A DNA stretch of 64,000 nucleotides from Corynebacterium coyleae (lineage in GTDB: Bacteria; Actinomycetota; Actinomycetes; Mycobacteriales; Mycobacteriaceae): NCBI RefSeq assembly GCF_030408635.1, contig NZ_CP047198.1, positions 2,170,001 to 2,234,000 of the forward strand. The letters run 5' to 3'. Shown here in pieces: positions 42,863 through 54,381 of the stretch; positions within the stretch are counted from its first letter, which is position 1, and each line of letters begins with the position of its first letter. Under the pieces are notes generated by a model. It ran no database searches and was not told the DNA's origin. It worked only from the letters and a program-made list of their open reading frames with translations. A program made the position numbers and the translations under genes.

Positions 42863-44077
42863 TTACGCCATTGCTGCAGACACCTTCGCCGCTGCTTCAA
42901 GCAGCATCCAGCCGGAGAGTTGGACGGAGAGGTCGCGTTCGTCGATACGCACGAGCCCCACGGCCTCGCTAATCGACGCCGGCCCCAACCCATAGTTATG
43001 CGGCAGCCGCGCATCCTCGGTCCACTCCGCGGCGAAAACCGGCAGGCCGTCGACCTCCAGGCGGTGCGACCACAGCGACTCGGCGGACTGCATGACCAGA
43101 CGCGCCGCGATCTTCTTCGTGGCGATGTTCTCCTTCGAATCCTCCGGCAGACGCGTGGCCACGTCGGCGAGGTAGCGCGCGAGGATGCCCTTGAACAGGC
43201 CGCCGTCGCCCTCGCCGGACTCCTCCGGTGGGCTCAGCAGCACGCCGTGCGGGGTGGCCATCTCCAGGGCGATGGCCTGCACGATCGCGCGGATGTGGGT
43301 GATGTAGAACATGGAAGCATCGGCGCGCTCGGAGTTTTCGAACGAGTCGATGGGTTCGTCGTGGGCCAGGCCGACATCCTCGCGCAGCGCGAGCGCGATC
43401 TCCAGGCTCGCGCCGAGCACCGTGCCCTGGTTGTAGGTGTAAATCTTATCGACGACCTCAGGCCCCGACATGCGCATCCGAACACCGTCGCTGAGCAGAC
43501 CGTCCTCGCGCACCAGGTTGTCAAAGATCCAGTCGACGATCTCGCGCGCCTTATCCAACCGGCCCGTGCGCGCGAACACCATCGCGGCGGTCGCGTTCGA
43601 CGGAATGTTGTAGAACGTCTCCCCCGTACGCCACGGCAGCACGCCCACCACCGGGTCGATGCCCGAGAGCAGGTCAAACTCCAGATCCTCGAGCACCTTC
43701 GAGCGTTTCGACGACACCTTGCCGTTATTCTTCGGCAACTGTCCCGCACGCGCCCAGGCAAGCGCGAGCCACGCCTTGTCGTCGTAGTAAATGTTGCGGG
43801 TCAAGCGGCCGCGGCTACGCCCCTGGATCGTGCGCATCGTCTGGAGGATCCGGCGCCGACGCGTCTTCGTCGGACGTCGCATCGCCGCATCCACCTGGCA
43901 ATCCAGGTACTGCGCCTGCCACCAGTAGTGCCAGTGCCAAAACAGCTTGTCTTTCAGCCCCGGCGGCCAGGCGACGACCGCCATGTTGGTTTTCGGCAAC
44001 ATCCAGAGCTTCTGGGCGTGACGTTCAGTAATTGCCGATTCCGCCAAATCAGCACGATGCGCCCAGGTTTCAGGCAC
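42863..44077 (-). CDS. GH76 family alpha-1,6-mannanase-like protein (Rv0365c-like)
   Basis: 404 residues from a GTG at 44077 preceded by AGAGGAG. The GH76 signature is the adjacent Asp pair D99-D100 in NIYYDDKAWLALAWARAGQ, the catalytic dyad of this family, followed by (alpha/alpha)6 helices (GVLPWRTGETFYNIPSNATAAMVFARTGRLDKAREIVDW, IYTYNQGTVLGASL). There is no signal peptide, so it is likely cytoplasmic or non-classically located. The counterpart in Mycobacterium lies near fba as well. The substrate may be a mannan-type glycan of the envelope; this is inferred from the family. Confidence 0.85.
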   Translation of the reverse strand: MPETWAHRADLAESAITERHAQKLWMLPKTNMAVVAWPPGLKDKLFWHWHYWWQAQYLDCQVDAAMRRPTKTRRRRILQTMRTIQGRSRGRLTRNIYYDDKAWLALAWARAGQLPKNNGKVSSKRSKVLEDLEFDLLSGIDPVVGVLPWRTGETFYNIPSNATAAMVFARTGRLDKAREIVDWIFDNLVREDGLLSDGVRMRMSGPEVVDKIYTYNQGTVLGASLEIALALREDVGLAHDEPIDSFENSERADASMFYITHIRAIVQAIALEMATPHGVLLSPPEESGEGDGGLFKGILARYLADVATRLPEDSKENIATKKIAARLVMQSAESLWSHRLEVDGLPVFAAEWTEDARLPHNYGLGPASISEAVGLVRIDERDLSVQLSGWMLLEAAAKVSAAMA

Positions 44078-44158
44078 TGATGTCTCCTCTAAGTAGTGAC
44101 GTTTCCACGTGTGTTGCCAGTTATTTTGCCTGTTATATTGCCAGACCGCGCCGTTTTG

Positions 44159-44815
44159 CTACCACGCGTGAGACAGGTCTGCATGCTGGCGGATCCAGGC
44201 ATGCATGGCGATCCCCGCCGCCACGCCCGCGTTAATCGAGCGCGTCGAGCCGAATTGGGCGATTGAGCAGGTCATCACCGCCGCCTCCTGGGCGGCCTCG
44301 GTCACGCCGGGGCCTTCCTGCCCGAAGAGGAGCACGCACTCGCGGGGCAGCTCGGCTGTTTCCAGGGGTACGCATCCGGGGGTGTTATCGATGGCCACGA
44401 CAGCGATGCCCTCGCCGTTCGCCCACTCGATGAGATCCGCGACCGTTTCGTGGTGACGAATATGTTGGTAGCGGTCCGTCACCATCGCGCCGCGCCGGTT
44501 CCAACGCTTCCGGCCCACGATGTGGACCTCCTTGGCCAGAAACGCGTTCGCGGTGCGCACGACGGTGCCGATGTTCATGTCGTTTTCAAAGTTCTCAATA
44601 GCGACATGGAACGGGTGCCGGCGCGTATCCAGATCTGCGACGACCGCGTCCAGCGACCAGTAACGGTAGGCGTCGACGACGTTTCGGGTGTCGCCGTGTT
44701 CGAGGTACTCCGGGTCGTAGCGCGGATCATCCGGCCACTCGCCCTCCCAGGGGCCCACACCGTGTCGGCCCTCCATCCACTCGGTCGGGCCCTTCCCGTT
44801 ATCTAACTCAGGCAA
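44159..44815 (-). CDS. SpoU/TrmH-family RNA methyltransferase
   Basis: About 218 residues. SPOUT motifs in order: ENFENDMNIGTVVRTANAFL (motif 1), CVLLFGQEGPGVTEAA (motif 2), STRSINAGVAAGIAMHAW (motif 3, with Ile for the usual Leu). It transfers methyl from SAM to a ribose 2'-OH of tRNA or rRNA; the target is unknown. The start chosen is TTG at 44815, which has GGAGG 9 nt upstream inside the end of pyrE; a frame extending to 44869 is possible. It overlaps pyrE by 8 nt, so it is translationally coupled to it. Confidence 0.85.
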   Translation of the reverse strand: MPELDNGKGPTEWMEGRHGVGPWEGEWPDDPRYDPEYLEHGDTRNVVDAYRYWSLDAVVADLDTRRHPFHVAIENFENDMNIGTVVRTANAFLAKEVHIVGRKRWNRRGAMVTDRYQHIRHHETVADLIEWANGEGIAVVAIDNTPGCVPLETAELPRECVLLFGQEGPGVTEAAQEAAVMTCSIAQFGSTRSINAGVAAGIAMHAWIRQHADLSHAW

Positions 44816-45338
44816 GCCCGAGATCCTCCAGGCCCAGCAGGTAGCGGTACTCCAGGCCGGCGTCCGCAATCACCTTGTCCGCACCCGTCGCACGATCGAC
44901 CACCGTGGCCACCGCAACCACCTCGGCGCCCTCCGCACGGCAGGCCTCCACGGCGGTCAGCGGGGAGTTGCCGGTCGTGGTGGTGTCCTCCACAACCAGC
45001 ACGCGCTTGCCCTTGATGGACGGGCCCTCGATGCGGCGCTGCATACCGTGCTTCTTCGCTTCCTTGCGCACCACAAACGCGTCGATCGGGCGCCCCTCCG
45101 CATGCATCACGGCAGTAGCCACTGGGTCCGCGCCCAGGGTCAGGCCGCCAACAGCGTCGAAGTCCAGATCAGCGGTCAGTTCACGCAGCAGTTTGCCGAT
45201 CAGCGGGCTGGCCTCGTGGTGCAGCGTCGCGCGACGCAGATCCACGTAGTAATCAGCCTCCTTGCCCGACGACAGCGTTACCTTCCCGTGCACCACGGCA
45301 AGCTCTTTGACCAGTTCAGCAAGTTGTTCTTTCATCAT
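44808..45338 (-). CDS. pyrE: Orotate phosphoribosyltransferase PyrE
   Basis: 176 residues. Makes OMP from orotate and PRPP in pyrimidine synthesis. The PRPP-binding motif VLVVEDTTTTGNS is clear, with DAFVVRKEAKKHGMQRRIEG for the flexible loop lysines and SGKEADYYVDLRRATLH at the N terminus. There are two adjacent ATGs (45338, 45335); the second overlaps the stop of the upstream gene as ATGA and has the better spacing from GAGGAG. Middle gene of a tight operon: rhodanese - membrane protein - pyrE - methylase. Confidence 0.95.
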   Translation of the reverse strand: MMKEQLAELVKELAVVHGKVTLSSGKEADYYVDLRRATLHHEASPLIGKLLRELTADLDFDAVGGLTLGADPVATAVMHAEGRPIDAFVVRKEAKKHGMQRRIEGPSIKGKRVLVVEDTTTTGNSPLTAVEACRAEGAEVVAVATVVDRATGADKVIADAGLEYRYLLGLEDLGLA

Positions 45339-46207
45339 TTCTCCTCAGAATCAAAAATCGACGACGGCCCCTGCACACGCTTTACCCGTGTCAGGTCGGT
45401 GCCGGTGCGCTCGTCGCCAGCAATCGCGGCAACATCGTCGCCACCAAGATCGCGCTCCTCGACCTCACCGCGCTCCCCACCCGTGACCCGCGTGGGCAGC
45501 TCCACCGGATCCTCCGGCCGCTCAGGGCCCGCTTGCTTCTCGACGACCCCCTGCACCTTCTCCTCCCCCACCCACAACGGAGCATCCTCGACCGGCGGGA
45601 GTGTGCGCGCAGCATCCGCCAGAAGCGCCACCGCGGCCAACGACGCATCCCAATCCTGCGCCGTAGACCCCGGCGCGAACTGGGCAATCACCCACGCGCC
45701 CTCGAACCACACCGCGTTGACTGCGGGCGGGAGGGTGGATAGGGCGGTGCGCACGCGGTCGTCGATAAGCCTGCGCGCAGGGCCAACACTCGTGGCATGG
45801 ACCGTGAACGCGCCCTCGCGGGTGGCCTCCACCAGGTCATCGTCGCGCTGTGTCGGCTCGAACCCGTCGCGGCGCATATCCACCACAACGTCCGCCTCGC
45901 AGCCCGTGGGCACTGCAAGCACCGTCGTCTCCCCCAAATCCGCCAAGTGCAGATCATGGCCGAACGCGGAGCCCGACACGACCTCGCGCGCCGTCGCCCC
46001 CGCAGACGCCGCACCACGACGCCACTCCGCCGCCAACAGATCGTCTACCTTGGCAAACGTAAACCCGTGCTGCCGCGCCCACGCACGCCGTGGGCTTCGT
46101 TCACGCGCATCAGCGACAAACAGCGCAACACCAGCGGCGAGCGCCACAAACGCGAGAACTAACAGCACAGCAATCATCAGCGACGATGTTACAGCGCCCG
46201 CCGACAC
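45335..46207 (-). CDS. Membrane-anchored conserved protein (Rv0383c-like)
   Basis: 290 residues. One N-terminal transmembrane helix (MIAVLLVLAFVALAAGVALFV, about 11-31), then a soluble domain of mixed alpha/beta character (RQHGFTFAKVDDLLAAEW, AVNAVWFEGAWVIAQFAPG) and a charged, acidic C-terminal third. The N-terminal start is a GTG 6 nt after the stop of the upstream gene; the ATG ten codons later, just before the membrane helix, is equally possible. No enzyme motif is seen. The position between rhodanese and pyrE matches Rv0383c. Function unknown. Confidence 0.75.
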   Translation of the reverse strand: MSAGAVTSSLMIAVLLVLAFVALAAGVALFVADARERSPRRAWARQHGFTFAKVDDLLAAEWRRGAASAGATAREVVSGSAFGHDLHLADLGETTVLAVPTGCEADVVVDMRRDGFEPTQRDDDLVEATREGAFTVHATSVGPARRLIDDRVRTALSTLPPAVNAVWFEGAWVIAQFAPGSTAQDWDASLAAVALLADAARTLPPVEDAPLWVGEEKVQGVVEKQAGPERPEDPVELPTRVTGGERGEVEERDLGGDDVAAIAGDERTGTDLTRVKRVQGPSSIFDSEEK

Positions 46208-46213
46208 GACACG

Positions 46214-47059
46214 CTAAACACGCGTAACCACGCGATTCTCCTTATTCGCACTCCACTGCGACCAACCGCCCACATAGTGCGTCAACACAGGCAGGCCAGC
46301 GTGCTCCATCGCCGCCAACAACTTCGCTGAGTGGTTGCCCGAACCCGAATACGTAATCACGCTCTGCGGGTCCGTGTTCTGGGTAATGCCGACCTCCGCC
46401 AGGCGGCCTCGGATGGTGTTGGTGTCCTTGATCAGGTGCGTGGTGTCGTCGAAAAGATCTGTCACCGGCAGATTCACCGCACCCGGAATGTGACCCGCGC
46501 GCAGGTCCAGGATCTCGCGGCGACCCGCGAAACGGCGCGCGCTCCTCGCGTCCAGGATCATGCCCTCAAACTCGCGGACATCCTCCATCGACGCCGTCGG
46601 CATACTCCCCGGCTCCAGGCGCTCCGGCTCGCGCGGCACCACAATGCCACCCGGACCCGCCACCGTGGGGAGCTTCTCGCGCTTCCACGCCGCAAACCCA
46701 CCATCCACGATGTGCACATCAGTCACGCCCACCCAACGCAGAATCCACCACGTGCGCGCCGCGAACAGCCCGTTGCCACCGTCGTAGATGTACACCGGGC
46801 GATCCTCCTCGATCCCCCAATTCGCAACCGCCTTCTTCACCACACCAAACGCCGGCAACGGGTTACGCCCCGCCTTGCGACCCGGCAGCCCCGCCAACTG
46901 CGACGACGGATCACAAAACAACGCCGTCGGCACATGCTCGGACTGAAACTTCGACCACGCCTTACCGGCCTCCGGCTCCCACAGCGAAGCAATAACGGTC
47001 TGCTTCAGGCCAGCCTGAATACGTTCATTGAGATCCGCGGCAGAAACGAAAACGCTCAT
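46214..47059 (-). CDS. Two-domain rhodanese-like protein lacking the catalytic cysteine
   Basis: 281 residues, tandem rhodanese domains like thiosulfate/3-mercaptopyruvate sulfurtransferases. The first (inactive-type) domain has VYIYDGGNGLFAARTWWILRW and HIVDGGFAAWK. The second has ILDARSARRFAG, GHIPGAVNLP and the active-site loop VITYSGSGNHSA. In active enzymes this loop reads YCGSG; here residue 238 is Ser, so no persulfide can form at the usual site. ATG at 47059 has no ribosome site, and TTACACT at -10 distance suggests a leaderless transcript. First gene of the pyrE operon. Annotated as sseA-like by fold; sulfur transfer is doubtful. Confidence 0.85.
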   Translation of the reverse strand: MSVFVSAADLNERIQAGLKQTVIASLWEPEAGKAWSKFQSEHVPTALFCDPSSQLAGLPGRKAGRNPLPAFGVVKKAVANWGIEEDRPVYIYDGGNGLFAARTWWILRWVGVTDVHIVDGGFAAWKREKLPTVAGPGGIVVPREPERLEPGSMPTASMEDVREFEGMILDARSARRFAGRREILDLRAGHIPGAVNLPVTDLFDDTTHLIKDTNTIRGRLAEVGITQNTDPQSVITYSGSGNHSAKLLAAMEHAGLPVLTHYVGGWSQWSANKENRVVTRV

Positions 47060-47135
47060 GCGCGCAAGTGTAACGAGGTTTTAGAGCCGAGGCTGGGTGC
47101 GCGCCGGCTGGTGGCGCCGGTCGGTGGTAGCGCGG

Positions 47136-47549
47136 CTAAGCCATGTAGCCCGGAGCAAGCTGAATCGCACCCTGCTCCGCCAAACCGCCAAGCCACTCCG
47201 CGATCCCCTCGCGCGGACAATCCGCACCAATGCTCGCCGCCAACATTCCGCCAGGGCCCAACTCCACGCGACACCCAAACGCCAGCAGCGTCGCCGCAAT
47301 CTCGTGCGGGCTCTCATCCTCCGGCAACACACGCACCGTCGACGCGCCCCCACGCACCACCACACGATCCACATGGAACGCACCCCCGACCAGCACGCAC
47401 TCCACAATGTCCCCCAGCGCGAGCGTCGTATCGACGAACGGCACACTCGCCACCACAAACAAATTCGACCCAATCTGCTGAGCCCGAAGCTGCTCACTCT
47501 CCACACCAGGAATGACAACACGGGTGAGAATCGTCGTAGTCGGCTGCAT
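47136..47549 (-). CDS. Small conserved protein, possibly DUF4265-like
   Basis: 137 residues. Two beta-rich halves: FVVASVPFVDTTLALGDIVECVLVGGAFHVDRVVVRGG, which resembles DUF4265 proteins (the 'slGD.v' element), and an alpha/beta half HEIAATLLAFGCRVELGPGGMLAASIG. No catalytic residues stand out. ATG at 47549 has no ribosome site; TACACT lies about 10 nt upstream, again suggesting a leaderless mRNA. It is divergent from the Abi gene across a 248-bp region. Family assignment is a weak resemblance. Confidence 0.6.
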   Translation of the reverse strand: MQPTTTILTRVVIPGVESEQLRAQQIGSNLFVVASVPFVDTTLALGDIVECVLVGGAFHVDRVVVRGGASTVRVLPEDESPHEIAATLLAFGCRVELGPGGMLAASIGADCPREGIAEWLGGLAEQGAIQLAPGYMA

Positions 47550-47674
47550 AAGGGGCAGTGTATCGCGGAGTGGCCGGATTGTTGGAAGGGTTGGTGGAAG
47601 GGTTGTTGGTTTGTGGGCTTTCGGTGGCTGTGCGCCGTCGCCCCCTTCGACGAAGTCACAGTGCTAAACGAAAC

Positions 47675-47771
47675 GAGGGCCTTGCAAGCAACAAATGCTT
47701 CAACAAGACCCTCACCGCCGAAGACAAGGTCTATCAAGACGGTCTGTCGGCTAGTGTACAGAAAAACACTA
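47675..47771 (+). ncRNA. Candidate structured RNA upstream of the Abi gene (three hairpins)
   Basis: Hairpin 1: GAGGGCCTTG (47675-47684) pairs with CAAGACCCTC (47704-47713) with one mismatch, and inside it AAGCA pairs with TGCTT around ACAAA. Hairpin region 2 (about 47718-47750) has two copies of AAGAC..GGTCTNTC, each itself AGAC/GGTCT self-complementary, framed by CCG and CGG. Hairpin 3: TAGTGT (47752-47757) with ACACTA (47766-47771). They end 26 nt before the ATG of the HEPN gene on the same strand. Coding of a protein is not supported here. Whether it is a separate RNA or a 5' leader cannot be decided by eye. Confidence 0.5.
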
Positions 47772-47797
47772 AATACGGAATCCAAACGGGGGTTGGA

Positions 47798-48967
47798 ATG
47801 AAAAGAAAAATCGAATGGGTTTCCCAAAAACGGCTGCAACCGTATCTTGAACAAACCGCTAACAAAGAAGAATCCGCTTGGGCTCTGTACGAGTGGAACG
47901 CAGCCGTGTCAGCAGCACTGTCCGAAGTAATTCACCACGTGGAAGTACTCCTAAGGAACTCCATGATGCAAAAGCTGGAGACCATCCACCCTCTTGCTTT
48001 CCCATGGAACGTTCACACCGACAACACAGTAGGCAAAGTTGCAGCGCGGTTGACTAACAAAACTCACCAAACCGCACCAGATGAAAACGACATAATCTCG
48101 CAGTTAAATCTCGGTTTCTGGGTCCAGCTCATTCATTCAAAAGATTTTCAAGTGGCTGAGCTTTGGAACACTCACCTGAACTCCGTGTTTCCAGGCAAGA
48201 GCGATAGGAAAGTAGTTGGGCGTGCACTCGAGGACCTTCGAGAGCTGCGCAATAGAGTCTCCCACCAGGACTCACTGCTCCACGTCGACCCCATCGTTGA
48301 ACTCCGAAAGATCCTCAGACTCGCAAAATGGATTGATCCAGACGCGGCAACTTGGATCGAATCAATCTCAAAGGTTGATGAGGTCTTGCAAGACCGCCCT
48401 GGAAACGTTTACGAACCTGACACCGTTCTCTTCGCTTCTACGAGAAACACCACAGTTCAGCGTAGTGCGAATAAATCATTCCGATACCCACTGTTCGACA
48501 CTTATCACCATCAATCGGCAATAATTCTTGAGGACTCAGTTCGAGTGAGCCGAGAGGTCAAACACCTAGGTTTCTACCTGCCGAAAGACGATCCTAAGAA
48601 CAACCCTCAACCATCATCTTTTCTTCCTGATACCCCTGAAGCACACATCGCAAAAGTATTTCCCCTTATTCAAGAACGATTCGTCCCCCAAGACTGGTCT
48701 CACAACGAAGTCAAGCGGCTAAAGAATGGGGACCAGCGCGATCAAAGGATTGCAGCAGTCATGGGGTTCGGCCTAAGCAAGGGGTACCGCGCCGACCGGA
48801 GCTACATCATCTACCTGTTATCGGGACCTACAGACCCAGATACTGCTAGAACCTCAGCAGTGATCATCCACGATCAATCCGGTAAGGGTTCTGCTTTTGT
48901 GAAACTCAACCGGTATCTGAGACTCGACTCCCTCAAAGGAGCGCACCAAACCTCAGATCTCATTTAA
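47798..48967 (+). CDS. Abi_2/AbiD-F-like HEPN protein, putative phage-defence toxin
   Basis: 389 residues. The N-terminal 160 residues are helical and carry EWNAAVSAALSEVIHHVEVLLRNSM, the opening helix pattern of Abi-like HEPN proteins, and the RNase motif R151-N-x-x-x-H156 in LRELRNRVSHQDSLL. The C-terminal half (about 195-389) is unrelated to anything I recognise (SFRYPLFDTYHHQSAII..., RIAAVMGFGLSKGYRADRSYIIYLLSG). ATG at 47798 has GGGGGTTGGA just upstream; the frame extends to 47558 through the hairpins but without a start context. Lower GC and many AT-rich codons relative to neighbours suggest horizontal origin. It stands alone between the pyrE block and adhA. RNase-based abortive infection is inference from the family. 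Confidence 0.75.
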   Translation: MKRKIEWVSQKRLQPYLEQTANKEESAWALYEWNAAVSAALSEVIHHVEVLLRNSMMQKLETIHPLAFPWNVHTDNTVGKVAARLTNKTHQTAPDENDIISQLNLGFWVQLIHSKDFQVAELWNTHLNSVFPGKSDRKVVGRALEDLRELRNRVSHQDSLLHVDPIVELRKILRLAKWIDPDAATWIESISKVDEVLQDRPGNVYEPDTVLFASTRNTTVQRSANKSFRYPLFDTYHHQSAIILEDSVRVSREVKHLGFYLPKDDPKNNPQPSSFLPDTPEAHIAKVFPLIQERFVPQDWSHNEVKRLKNGDQRDQRIAAVMGFGLSKGYRADRSYIIYLLSGPTDPDTARTSAVIIHDQSGKGSAFVKLNRYLRLDSLKGAHQTSDLI

Positions 48968-49136
48968 CTCACACAACGTGGAATCTTCGTTCCTCGCTCA
49001 CTGCCTAACCGGCCTCCCTCACGTTTCTCCTGCAACGACGGTGAAGCCGAAGAACACCGAGAATAGGAAGCTAATCTTTACTCGACGATGTGTCTAGAAC
49101 AGAGCGGGCATGTCAAGGTGCGGACCCGAACACGAC

Positions 49137-49180
49137 AAAGCCCGGAGCCAGCCGGAAAAACCGTACTGACTGCGGGCTTT
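49137..49180 (-). terminator. Probable terminator of adhA
   Basis: AAAGCCCG / CGGGCTTT arms with a 28-nt loop that contains a smaller CGGTTTTTCCG hairpin. No long T-run follows, so it is less certain. Confidence 0.5.
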
Positions 49181-49219
49181 GGGCTGCAGGCTGCAGGCTA
49201 AACCACAGACGCCAAACGC

Positions 49220-50251
49220 CTAGTACTTGATGGACATACGGCCAGCGATCTTGCCGTTGCGCATGTCCTCAAACACCTTGTTCACGTCGTCGAGCTCGCA
49301 CGCCGTGACATGCGGCTTCACCTCGCCGCGGGCGTAGAAGTCGAGCGCCTCCGCCATGTCCTGACGGGTGCCGACCAGCGAGCCGCGGATGGTGATGCCA
49401 CGCAGCACGATGTCGAAGATCGGTGCCGGGAACTCCCCCGGAGGCAGACCGTTGAAGACGATCGTGCCGTTGGAGCGGCACATCGCGATGGCCTGGCCGA
49501 AAGCAGCCGGGTGCACCGCCGTGACCAGCACGCCGTGCGCGCCGCCGTCGGTGAACTCCTGCACAGCCTCACCCGGGTCGGTGTTAGCAGCGTTAACGGT
49601 GAACTCAGCGCCGAGTTCCTTGGCGAGTTCGAGCTTGTCGTCGGCAATGTCCACCGCGATCACGCGCATGCCCATGGCCACGCCGTACTGCACCGCGAGG
49701 TGGCCGAGGCCACCGATGCCGGAGATGACCATGAACTGGCCCGGCTTGGTCTGTGCTTCCTTCAGGCCCTTGTACACGGTGACGCCAGCGCAGAGGATCG
49801 GTGCGACCTCGACCGGGTCGGCGCCTTCCGGGATGCGCGGGGCGTAGCGCGTATCCACGAGCATGTACTCGCCGAAGGAACCATTCACCGTGTAGCCGCC
49901 GTATTCTGCCTGCTTGCAGTACGTCTCACGGCCGGTGCGGCAGAACTCGCACTCACCACATGCGGACCAGAGCCAAGCGTTGCCGACCATGTCGCCAACC
50001 TTGACCGAATGCCCACCCGGACCCAACTCGATGACCTCACCGACGCCCTCGTGACCAGGCACGAACGGCGGAGCCGGCTTCACCGGCCAGTCACCTTCCA
50101 CTGCGTGGAGGTCGGTGTGGCAGATGCCGCTGGCGGAGAGCTTCACCAGTGCCTGGAACGGGCCCGGCTTGGGAAGGTCGATTTCCTTGACATTGACGGT
50201 TGGACCGAACTGTTCGGCAACTGCTGCGCGCATAGAAGTTGGGGTGGACAT
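49220..50251 (-). CDS. adhA: Zinc-dependent alcohol dehydrogenase AdhA
   Basis: 343 residues, medium-chain dehydrogenase oxidising ethanol with NAD+. Catalytic zinc ligands in GICHTDLHAVEGDW and GHEGVGEV, structural zinc in CGECEFCRTGRETYC, NAD-binding GIGGLGHLAVQYG. ATG at 50251 has AAAGGAG 6 nt upstream; the in-frame extension to 50401 crosses the promoter. The amino acid sequence matches the corynebacterial AdhA type. Regulated in C. glutamicum by RamA and GlxR as I recall; one GlxR-like site is visible here. Confidence 0.95.
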   Translation of the reverse strand: MSTPTSMRAAVAEQFGPTVNVKEIDLPKPGPFQALVKLSASGICHTDLHAVEGDWPVKPAPPFVPGHEGVGEVIELGPGGHSVKVGDMVGNAWLWSACGECEFCRTGRETYCKQAEYGGYTVNGSFGEYMLVDTRYAPRIPEGADPVEVAPILCAGVTVYKGLKEAQTKPGQFMVISGIGGLGHLAVQYGVAMGMRVIAVDIADDKLELAKELGAEFTVNAANTDPGEAVQEFTDGGAHGVLVTAVHPAAFGQAIAMCRSNGTIVFNGLPPGEFPAPIFDIVLRGITIRGSLVGTRQDMAEALDFYARGEVKPHVTACELDDVNKVFEDMRNGKIAGRMSIKY

Positions 50252-50286
50252 GTGGTGCTCCTTTCCTAAAGGGGACGGTCGCCATG

Positions 50287-50302
50287 AATGATACGGATCA
50301 CA
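50287..50302 (-). promoter_or_regulatory. Possible GlxR (CRP-type) site upstream of adhA
   Basis: Minus strand TGTGATCCGTATCATT: first half-site TGTGA is perfect, the second (TCATT for TCACA) is degenerate; six-base spacing is right. Confidence 0.35.
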
Positions 50303-50379
50303 CCGGAGTACGTCGAGTGAAGTGAAACACGTTTTCATTAAGCGACAAATGTTTAGGAAAATGGGGCCGGTAGAAGAAA

Positions 50380-50408
50380 AGGCCGGGCGGATTTTCTCCA
50401 CCCGACCT
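50380..50408 (-). terminator. Terminator of clpB
   Basis: AGGTCGGGTGGA / TCCGCCCGGCCT stem (with G-U pairs) followed on the minus strand by TTTTCTTCT. Confidence 0.75.
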
Positions 50409-50431
50409 GGGCTTACAGCGACAGCACCGAA

Positions 50432-52990
50432 CTAAGCGGCGCTGACGCCAGCAGTGACGTCGAGGAACTCGCCGCCGTCGGCAACATCGACATGGACGGT
50501 GTCACCGTCGCGGATGTCACCGGCCAACAACTTCTTCGCCAGACGGTCACCGATGGCCTGCTGGATCAGGCGACGCAGCGGACGAGCGCCGTAGGCCGGG
50601 TCGTAGCCGCGATCTGCGAGCCAGGACTTCGCCGAATCCGACACCTCCAGCACCAGGCGACGGGCGGCGAGACGCTCGGCCAGGCCCTCCAGCTGGATGT
50701 CGACGATGCCGACCAACTGGTCCTTGCTCAGCGGATCGAACACCACAACATCGTCGAGACGGTTGATGAACTCCGGCTTGAAGTGGCGCTTCACAGCCTC
50801 CATGATCTGGTCGCGGTCGCCACCGGCGCCCAGGTTGGAGGTCAGGATCACCACCGTGTTGCGGAAGTCGACCGTGCGGCCCTGGCCGTCGGTGAGGCGC
50901 CCCTCGTCCAGCACTTGGAGAAGCACGTCGAAGACGTCGGGATGGGCCTTCTCTACCTCGTCGAAAAGCACGAGCGAGTACGGACGACGACGAACAGCCT
51001 CAGTGAGCTGGCCGCCAGCGTCGTAGCCGACGTATCCCGGAGGGGCACCGACCAGGCGCGCAACCGAGTGCTTCTCACCGTATTCGGACATGTCGATGCG
51101 GATCATTGCGGTTTCGTCGTCGAAAAGGAACTCCGAGAGCGACTTCGCCAACTCCGTCTTACCCACACCAGTCGGGCCGAGGAAGAGGAACGAACCGATC
51201 GGACGGTTCGGATCCGCCACACCCGCACGGGAGCGACGCACCGCGTCCGACACCGCGACGACAGCTTCCTTCTGACCGACGACACGCTCGCCCAGCACAG
51301 ACTCCATGTTGAGCAGCTTCTCGGTCTCACCCTGCATCATCTTGCCGGCCGGAATGCCCGTCCAGGAAGAGACGACATCGGCGATGATGTCCGGCGTGAC
51401 TTCCTCCTCCAGCATCGTCTTGTTGCTGGCCTCGGACTCCGCCTTGGCCACCTCCGCTTCCAGTTCAGGGATGCGCCCGTAGCGCAGCTCGGAGACCTTG
51501 GCGTAGTCGCCGTCACGCTCCGCGATCTCAGACTCGTTGCGCAGGCGCTCGAGCTCCTCCTTCGCAGACTGGACCTTGTTCACCTCAGCCTTCTCGTTCT
51601 CCCAACGAGCCTTCATCTCACCGAGACGTTCACGCTGGTCAGCGAGTTCCTCGCGCAAGTGCTCGAGGCGCTGCTTCGACGCCGCGTCAGACTCCTTCTG
51701 CAGCGCGATCTCCTCGATTTCTAGACGACGAACAATACGCTCCAGTTCATCAATCTCCTGCGGCGAAGAATCGATTTGCATACGGAGGCGGGAGCCGGCT
51801 TCGTCGACAAGATCGATCGCCTTATCCGGCAAGAACCGGTTCGTGATGTAGCGGTTGGAAAGCTCCGCCGCCGACACCAGCGCCGAGTCCTGGATGCGCA
51901 CACCGTGGTGCACCTCGTAGCGCTCCTTCAGGCCACGCAGAATACCGATCGTGTCCTCGACCGTCGGCTCCCCAACGTAAACCTGCTGGAAGCGACGCTC
52001 CAGGGCGGCGTCCTTCTCGATGTACTGGCGGTACTCGTCGAGCGTCGTCGCACCGACCAGACGCAGCTCACCGCGAGCCAGCAACGGCTTAATCATGTTG
52101 CCGGCATCCATCGCGGAATCACCGGTGGCGCCGGCGCCGACGATGGTGTGCAGCTCGTCGATAAACGTAATGATCTGACCGTTCGACTCCTTAATCTCAT
52201 CGAGCACAGCCTTCAGACGCTCCTCGAACTCACCGCGGTACTTCGCGCCCGCAACCATCGAGCCAAGGTCCAACGAAATCAGGGTCTTGCCCTTCAGGCT
52301 CTCCGGGACGTCGCCCGCCACAATGCGGCGCGCAAGCCCCTCAACGATCGCAGTCTTACCGACGCCCGGCTCACCGATCAGCACCGGATTATTCTTCGTA
52401 CGACGGGAAAGCACCTGAACCACACGGCGGATCTCCGAATCGCGGCCGATCACCGGATCAATCTTGCCCTCACGCGCACGAGCAGTCAGGTCCGTCGAGT
52501 ACTTCTGCAGCGCCTGGAACTGATCTTCCGGATTCTCCGAGGTGACCTTCTTGCCACCACGAACCGACGGGAACGCCTCCTTGAGCGCCTCAAACGTCGC
52601 GCCACGCTTCTGCAGCAACTCGGCCGCATCGTCCTTGCCCTTTGCAATCGCGGCGAGGAGAACATCGGCGGAAACGTATTCGTCGCCAAGTTCACCTGCA
52701 AGATCCTGCGCAACACTCAGCGCCGTCTGCAGATCCCTATTAATCCCCGGGTTGGCCATGCCCTGGCCCTCCGCGCTCGGGTAACCACTAATCAGCTCGC
52801 CAGCCTCGCGCGCCACCGTCTCCGGATCCACACCCGTGGCCTTGAGCACCGGGGCAGCAATGCCGCCGTCCTGCTTCAGCAACGCCTCAAGCACATGAGC
52901 CGGGCGCATATCCGGGTTCCCCGCAGCCGACGCACGCATCTGCGCTTGCTGCAAAGCCTCCTGCGTCTTCTGTGTGTACTTCGATGCCAT
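50432..52990 (-). CDS. clpB: ATP-dependent disaggregase ClpB
   Basis: 852 residues, full length. Clp_N repeats (1-145), AAA-1 with Walker A GEPGVGKT (206-213), the coiled middle domain (about 400-520, [26 protein letters not shown]), AAA-2 with GPTGVGKT (about 605), and the C-terminal D2-small domain. It resolves protein aggregates with DnaK. ATG at 52990 is preceded by AAAGGAT. A SigH-type promoter lies about 50 bp upstream, fitting heat and thiol-stress control in this genus. A 48-bp fragment resembling its 5' part recurs at 57757-57804. Confidence 0.97.
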
Positions 52991-53035
52991 ATCGCATCAT
53001 CCTTTCGTGCCTAAATTTTGTTTCGCACTATGTGT

Positions 53036-53379: not shown

Positions 53380-54381
53380 ATTTTGATTATGACCCAGAAG
53401 CTGACGCAGCCTATCTAGACATAGCAAGGTCAGACATCCTTCCGGAAAAACAGATATCAGCAATAACTACAGAAGGAATGGAAGGGTGTTAGGACCACGG
53501 ATTTAGTAACGCTGTGGTGAGTATCCAGTAACGCGCGGGTGAGTATCGAGTAACACCCGGGCGTTTTGGGGTTTCGGTGGGGTTATTGGGTCAGTCGCAT
53601 GTTGGTGCCTTCGAGTGTGATGATTTCGGCGCCGGCGACGAGTCGGTTGAGGATTGATTCGGCGATGACGGCGTCGGGGATGGATTTGTACCACTCGTCG
53701 GGTGTGAATTGGGATGTCACGATGGTTGATCCGCGGGGTTCGCGTTCTGCGAGGATGTTGAGTAGTTGGTGTGCGGTGGCGGCATCGATTGGGGTGGTGA
53801 GGAAGTCGTCGAGGACTAACACGTCGGTGTGGTGGAGGTCTTCGAGGAATGTGATGCGGGCTGGGTCGTCGTGTTTGAGCACGGCGAGGTGGTTGGCGAG
53901 TGTGTCGGTGCGGAAGAAGCGTGCGGAGTAGTCGTTTCGGCACGCCGCGGTGAGCAGTGCTTGGGCGAGGTAGGTTTTGCCGACGGAGGATTTGCCCAGG
54001 ATGACAATGTTTTGTGCGCTTTGGCACCATTGGCAGTGAGCGAGTCGGGTGATTTGCTCTTTGTTGATGGTGCGGTCGGGCGTGTAGGTGATGTCTTCGA
54101 TGCAAGCATCGGGATTTGGCGATCGGGATGCTTTGAGTAGTTTGTTGACTCGTCTCTCACGCTTGGCCGCTACCTCTTTGTCGAGTGCGTAGAGCACTTT
54201 GTCAGAGAAACTCCAGTCGTCGAATGCAGGATCGGCGGCGATGTCGATGACGCTTTGTCCGAAGGCGGTCATGCGCAGGTCGGTAAAGATCGGCAGGACT
54301 GATTCGTCGAGGAAGCGGGCGGATGTGGGGTGTCATGATTCCGGTGGACGGTGAAACCCACCGATCTGGAAGGATTAAATC

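Follow-up and report, generated by a model that had tools for sequence, protein, structure and literature searches.

RNA antitoxins of HEPN proteins have been recognised recently, in AbiF, and they bear on the origin of Cas13 (PMC12373285; PMC12737573, excerpts). As described in the excerpts of PMC12373285, C. difficile AbiF is neutralised through direct binding by RCd22, an RNA with two abiF hairpins, and a terminator is predicted between this RNA and its gene. For PbAbiF, whose structure is PDB 8vz6 (quoted from PMC12373285), bulge nucleotides inhibit the RNase, and the HEPN ribonuclease Cas13 is reported to descend from AbiF (PMC12737573, excerpts).

Here we compare with these systems a locus in a 64-kb window (the whole stretch of DNA that was analysed, whose positions are used throughout). 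We propose, with a probability of about 0.72, that two components at this locus form a toxin-antitoxin or abortive-infection unit of the AbiF type, in which an upstream RNA would be the antitoxin of a HEPN RNase toxin. Most likely it represents a branch of the HEPN Abi systems with RNA antitoxins that is both new and divergent and that was found here in Actinomycetota.

The HEPN/Abi_2-type protein and the RNA upstream of it

The features of the locus are the following.

47675..47713, + strand: hairpin 1 of the upstream RNA, with an outer stem of 5+4 bp, an inner stem of 5 bp (AAGC/GCUU) and a one-sided CAA bulge, from the fold, compensatory changes and the best match of covariance model R2
47714..47743, + strand: hairpin 2 of this RNA (ACCG...CGGU), which aligns across all 14 loci that have two hairpins
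47752..47771, + strand: third hairpin (TAGTGT/ACACTA), with a 6-bp stem, present and not conserved
47752..47757, + strand: TAGTGT, which may be the -10 element of a separate promoter for the toxin gene, from its position relative to TANCAY in relatives
47788..47792, + strand: GGGGG, probable ribosome-binding site before the start codon
47798..48967, + strand: HEPN/Abi_2-type protein of 389 aa, proposed RNase toxin, from the ATG at 47798 to the stop at 48967, with an Abi_2 match and the HEPN motif
48248..48265, + strand: RNxxxH HEPN motif (RNRVSH, R151-N-R-V-S-H156), from an alignment of 18 proteins
48410..48964, + strand: C-terminal domain of ~185 aa and of no known family by family searches, starting at about residue 205

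The initial annotation had described an RNxxxH HEPN protein with an Abi-like N terminus, and both parts of this description held. Residues R151, N152, R153 and H156 are invariant in 18/18 aligned proteins, and the window protein and its relatives therefore share the conserved RxxxxH by which the HEPN RNase superfamily is defined. The Pfam family Abi_2 (PF07751) matches residues 21-160 of the window protein with E 2.7e-4 and 21.7 bits, below its cut-off of 25.6, and matches 18/18 of the aligned relatives at E <=0.1 (best 1.5e-7). The closest full-length relative is from C. riegelii (56-57%), and the named organisms of all full-length relatives found belong to Actinomycetota. Five phage records match the protein, each in the N-terminal half and none over more than 50% of its length, and none of three candidate stretches in viral contigs is a relative. 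The window's own genome holds a second full-length paralogue outside the window (L031, G000:C1:57751-59025), which is 30% identical and has a one-hairpin RNA upstream. On the Arthrobacter plasmid p232 (L110), a homologue lies tail to tail with a gene annotated as a Swt1 family HEPN protein.

The C-terminal half of the protein gave no usable match in Pfam, NCBIfam, PHROGs or PDB sequences, which supports the earlier suggestion that it may represent a separate branch. Among the matches listed in 242 Corynebacterium genomes, the C-terminal domain was found in this protein or as fragments.

The fold of the 140 nt that precede the gene is better than that of 200/200 dinucleotide shuffles (z -3.5); the fold of a larger stretch of 250 nt is unremarkable (z -1.0), with 28/200 shuffles as good. 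Hairpin 1, with its outer stem of 5+4 bp and inner stem of 5 bp, corresponds to the 9-bp stem with a nested 5-bp stem that the initial annotation had pointed out. The ACCG/CGGU stem of hairpin 2 is the best fold of the isolated unit only, and in the minimum-energy fold of a longer stretch of the window its bases pair otherwise, which counts against the RNA structure proposed here. The doubled AAGAC..GGTCT unit and the 6-bp stem, to which attention had also been drawn, are both present upstream of the window gene, but neither is conserved in L002 and L040, which are the two closest relatives: both lack the third hairpin, and in both the second copy of the doubled unit is without its AAGAC half. 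We therefore rejected the doubled unit as an antitoxin repeat and the third hairpin as a part of the RNA. In place of the short tandem repeats that had been proposed, it is two tandem hairpins that are conserved. On the minus strand, two overlapping terminator-like sites lie within hairpins 1 and 2 (47698-47729) and could stop transcription that arrives from the convergent adh side.

Conservation of the RNA and its occurrence with and without the gene

Units of the RNA were extracted from 34 loci, with two hairpins in 14 and one in 20. Each unit is built on the same plan, in which an outer stem leads into a GC/GC step (or AGC/GCU or UGC/GCA) and, in most cases, a small inner hairpin; the bulge is one-sided, rich in purines and typically followed by GC, as in AGAGGC. 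Hairpin 1 has lost its inner arm in the subgroup formed by the window, L002 and L040, where the bulge is CAA. When the 14 two-hairpin loci are aligned without fitting to a model, 92.2% of cells form pairs, and 27 cells are changed on both sides, compared to 9.5 +/- 2.2 in shuffles (0/500 as high) and to 3 to 7 when the partners are slid. Two-sided changes occur in 7/15 pairs, a value that 41/500 shuffles reach. This covariation sits in hairpin 1; the three outer CCG/CGG pairs of hairpin 2 are invariant in 14/14 loci, so that none is seen there. Similarly, 34 matches of the one-hairpin set, including gene-less copies, contain 29 doubly changed cells compared to 7.4, in an alignment that is model-fitted. 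In a tree of 27 proteins, the two-hairpin form makes up one side of a 100/100 branch, so that RNA architecture follows protein descent.

Two covariance models were built, R2 from 11 two-hairpin RNAs with the window subgroup left out, and R1 trained on 19 one-hairpin units. The best match of R2 in the 64-kb window is 47673-47748 (E 0.013, 22 bits), and the next has E 0.91. This score is modest and counts against the reading of the RNA as an antitoxin; L002 and L040 score more weakly still (E 0.053 and 0.2). A scan of the loci with R1 gave 23 rows at E <0.001, which correspond to 22 places (L005 and L047 being one), and only L034, L036 and the near-copy L113 among them lie outside the training set. 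Loci that are the same place or near copies (L033, L067, L068, L074, L075, L092/L054, L109, L112, L114) were not counted as separate units; L067, L068, L074, L075, L092, L109, L112 and L114 each match a model. L069, a twin of L042, was checked for the RNA, and L113 was dropped from the promoter counts.

At gathering cut-offs, Rfam gave no match in the window or in the loci of 8 relatives, and lax E-values yielded only matches far below the families' own cut-offs. No report of this RNA was found in titles and the starts of abstracts of open-licence papers. We conclude from these searches that the RNA is a conserved family outside Rfam where searched. The Rfam search and homologue alignment that the initial annotation had called for thus ended with no Rfam cut-off reached and with compensatory changes found, and the lack of covariation or conservation that would have spoken against its proposal was not observed, both being present.

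We examined how closely the RNA is tied to the gene in 242 Corynebacterium genomes, 38 of which match the protein profile at E <=1e-30; by reading, 21 of these hold this branch or pieces of it, and 17 only short Abi_2 genes. By our own count from open frames, 14/14 full-length genes of the branch are accompanied by the RNA (G000 twice, G060, G024, G173, G143, G212, G199, G248, G130 twice, G045, G190 and G256). Together with the compensatory changes, this bears out the proposed link between a conserved structured RNA and the HEPN/Abi_2 gene. Further copies are held by Rhodococcus and Arthrobacter plasmids, where 8/8 fetched full-length copies have the RNA (8 of 9 full-length matches were fetched, H6 being left out). 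Upstream of short Abi_2 genes, RNA matches were obtained at L007 (G086; E 0.013) and L093 (E 0.35), and no RNA reached E <0.01 in the remaining short Abi_2 loci of the scan. Beyond Corynebacterium, 266 genomes of the class contain 4 RNA matches besides those of the window's own genome, one before a short HEPN gene (L196, G368) and three without a detectable gene. L007, L093 and L196 suggest that the RNA can precede short HEPN genes, those at L196 and L007 being without the C-terminal domain. L115 (Phaeobacter), taken as being without the C-terminal half, gave no RNA match. C-terminal fragments of the gene are present at L100 and L101 and in G196 and G211; L100 and L101 were checked for the RNA and have none, which counts against the reading as an antitoxin.

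Genome-wide searches of the same 242 genomes gave 23 RNA copies in 21 genomes with R1 and 14 copies in 14 genomes with R2, at 37 different places. Within ~1.5 kb downstream of these copies there are 10 intact genes, 14 broken, truncated or remnant genes, and 13 cases with no gene detectable (tblastn E <=0.01), where the classes are a reading of the tblastn table plus a 16-residue remnant for L142. The 37 copies are not exhaustive, as the strict filters missed known copies (the window, G060, G173 and G256). Decayed RNAs cannot be found by R1 and R2, a point against the reading as an antitoxin. For 12/13 gene-less copies, the genome has no match to the C-terminal domain at E <=1e-4. A syntenic series illustrates the loss, all of its members having the RNA: the gene is intact in G212, frameshifted in G012, truncated in G113, reduced to 70 C-terminal residues in G209, and absent in G138 and G160. 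Loss of a toxin with retention of the RNA (13/37 gene-less, 14/37 broken) is what an antitoxin predicts, and we read these copies as those of an RNA antitoxin that may outlive its HEPN toxin.

When gene-less copies were compared in pairs, similarity was higher in the RNA than in either flank in 4/4 cases: 88% compared to 51% upstream and 75% downstream for L149-L150, 98% (41/42) compared to 51% and 56% in the 80-nt flanks for L129-L131, 98% compared to 74% and 54% for L129-L130, and 100% compared to 55% upstream and 89% downstream for L130-L131, the three comparisons among L129, L130 and L131 being mutually dependent. The well-conserved downstream flanks of L130-L131 (89%) and L149-L150 (75%) count against retention of the RNA by selection. 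L149 differs from L146 by a two-sided change in the inner stem of hairpin 2 that keeps the pair, a change that may predate the loss of the gene. L145, L147, L148 and L150, which are without an intact gene, have one non-standard pair each in this stem, and L145 and L148 refold; both observations count against the reading as an antitoxin. In the C. riegelii-type genome G060, a second RNA copy (L192, at 322290) has lost part of hairpin 2 and lacks a toxin gene. Its site corresponds to that in the window, being flanked by the homologues of clpB and of the window's gene at 47136-47549, and this damaged copy implies that decay of the RNA also occurs. In addition, the RNA offers mutation a smaller target than the gene does; even without selection, intact RNAs would be expected next to some of the broken genes, which likewise counts against. 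Taken together, comparison of the loci indicates a conserved RNA structure that is present with every full-length gene examined and survives loss of the gene.

The surroundings of several copies were also inspected by eye. An NYN-like ORF lies near L192, and the neighbours of the gene-less RNAs L120, L126, L128, L129, L130 and L136 look defence- or mobile-related (AlbA_2-like, DUF3800-like, PIN/HsdR-like, ImmA-like, ExeA-like).

A possible promoter and the competing readings

A TANCAY element lies 5-20 nt past the last unit in 24/33 loci (shuffled mean 1.0, maximum 5); at that place the window, L002 and L040 have TAGTGT, TATAAT and TAGAGT instead. An in-frame start codon follows a TANNN(T/C) at 4-9 nt in 23/33 loci, a count made without a chance control, and we take this arrangement to be the leaderless promoter layout of actinobacteria. 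In the window and L002 the leader is longer and includes a probable Shine-Dalgarno sequence. These positions suggest a separate toxin promoter, located after the RNA and before the start codon; if so, the RNA would be a separate transcript, and the RNA and toxin are probably transcribed separately. A strict sigma-70 consensus scan of 47540-47810 found no promoter, which counts against this placement, and no terminator-like site was found on the plus strand of the same interval. TANCAY is kept in 8/14 copies without the gene (the 13 gene-less copies plus L138), where either the gene may have been lost recently or the element may also serve the RNA, an explanation that is incomplete.

The G+C content of 47550-49219 is 51%, compared to 59% for the window, and in 2/8 relatives' loci (L179 and L181) the neighbouring genes are 11 to ~75 nt apart where the window has 1.67 kb, the second neighbour lying outside the flank fetched in the other six. 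These values fit a gained insert. Elsewhere in the window (53583-54272, - strand), the translation of an ORF looks by eye like an IS21-type IstB helper ATPase.

Since the hairpins lie on the gene's strand and near its start codon, they could belong to the 5' UTR of the HEPN mRNA and act only in cis, as a leader that serves as attenuator, riboswitch or translational control element; the ~40 nt and probable Shine-Dalgarno that follow the possible -10 element of the window gene, and the lack of a consensus promoter between the window's hairpins and the gene, would agree with this. We retained such a leader among the alternatives and regard it as unlikely, because a promoter-like TANNNT follows the hairpins in 28/33 loci (shuffled mean 6.6) and would, together with the close start codons of 23/33 loci (again without chance control), leave the hairpins outside many of the mRNAs, and because thirteen gene-less copies persist. 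The conservation of gene-less copies weighs against an element that acts as DNA or as a protein-binding transcript to regulate its own locus (an operator, a terminator or an autoregulatory site of the HEPN protein). GC-rich inverted repeats do adjoin the gene, where the toxin could bind them and regulate itself, and the terminator-like sites are two on the minus strand and none on the plus strand; however, a palindromic operator would show neither the asymmetric AGAG bulge that is conserved in the unit nor its inner hairpin, and we consider this explanation very improbable.

The initial annotation had also raised an RNA-guided-like unit, that is, a HEPN nuclease with a targeting segment in its upstream RNA as in Cas13, in favour of which stands the description of AbiF as the Cas13 ancestor (PMC12737573, excerpts). 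By eye, the units of 34 loci are without an unpaired, variable, spacer-like stretch of guide length; there is no repeat array in 44000-53000 (no direct repeats >=20 nt within 200 nt of each other); and the copies in three genomes (L129, L130, L131) are identical at 41-42 of 42 positions. We judge this reading extremely improbable and rejected it, as there is no guide-like segment.

The best reading of the conserved upstream RNA is thus the RNA antitoxin that had been put forward. The HEPN protein would be an RNase toxin, to which the upstream RNA, with two tandem hairpins and their one-sided bulges, would bind directly, a bulge probably blocking the active site, and continued synthesis of the RNA would keep the cell from harm. 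When host transcription falls, as on phage infection, the short-lived RNA would become scarce and so free the toxin, whose own promoter, between RNA and start codon, would give a leaderless message in many relatives. By analogy with AbiF and type III systems, from which we infer them, the locus would be expected to show toxicity, RNase activity, direct binding, this release trigger and phage defence.

It is conceivable, though we find it rather doubtful, that the solitary chromosomal RNAs are kept by selection as immunity against plasmid-borne HEPN toxins (anti-addiction) and that the C-terminal domain makes the HEPN protein a distinct effector branch. If so, RNA-only genes would act against incoming HEPN toxins such as those that occur on Rhodococcus and Arthrobacter plasmids. 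The many solitary RNAs constitute a natural experiment, by which this anti-addiction idea becomes directly testable.

Comparison with known systems

The Cas13 family differs from this locus, where one RxxxxH motif was identified and there is neither a repeat array nearby nor a guide-like RNA. Type III systems (ToxIN, CptIN, TenpIN) resemble it in having an RNA antitoxin upstream of an RNase toxin, an arrangement that is here proposed. An apparent difference is the lack of a tandem sequence-repeat array here, the RNA having two unlike hairpins in 14 loci and one in 20. They also differ in that no plus-strand terminator-like site was found between the window RNA and the toxin (47540-47810), and in that the toxin is a HEPN protein and not ToxN-like (PMC12373285, excerpts). 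The PADLOC profiles PD-T4-5 and AbiD match 18/18 and 13/18 of the aligned proteins at E <=0.01, but the best stretches in the window protein cover only residues 5-60 and 25-64, respectively.

Compared to AbiF and its abiF RNA (RF03085), the locus has the same combination of a HEPN Abi_2 protein with RxxxxH and a structured RNA just upstream on the same strand. By eye, hairpin 1 also has the plan of the abiF RNA, in which an outer stem is followed by one nucleotide, a short inner stem and a one-sided 3' bulge, as in the RF03085 consensus on the phiC2 abiF region (CCCGCC-A-AGC...GCU-CAAAUC-GGCGGG), and RCd22 has two hairpins, as does the window RNA. The model RF03085 itself gave no match in the window at the gathering cut-off, in the upstream region at E <=5, or in L040 at E <=10, although it does find phiC2; it also gave no match in the window's own genome, in a search in which no control genome matched either. 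The window protein falls below the Abi_2 cut-off, whereas phiC2 AbiF scores 166 bits, and a profile comparison of the two is very weak (61 columns, probability 3, E 0.014). Model score thus places the window RNA outside RF03085, and the cut-off places the protein outside Abi_2. It further differs from AbiF in the extra C-terminal domain, in that full-length relatives with a named organism are here all Actinomycetota, and in the promoter-like element between RNA and gene, where RCd22 has its predicted terminator (PMC12373285, excerpts). Its RNA and its C-terminal domain both lie outside the listed families, and solitary RNAs are frequent. The locus most probably works like AbiF and its RNA, and would add to these systems a divergent Actinomycetota branch whose RNA is a different one, whose C-terminal domain is new, and in which the two RNA architectures track the protein tree.
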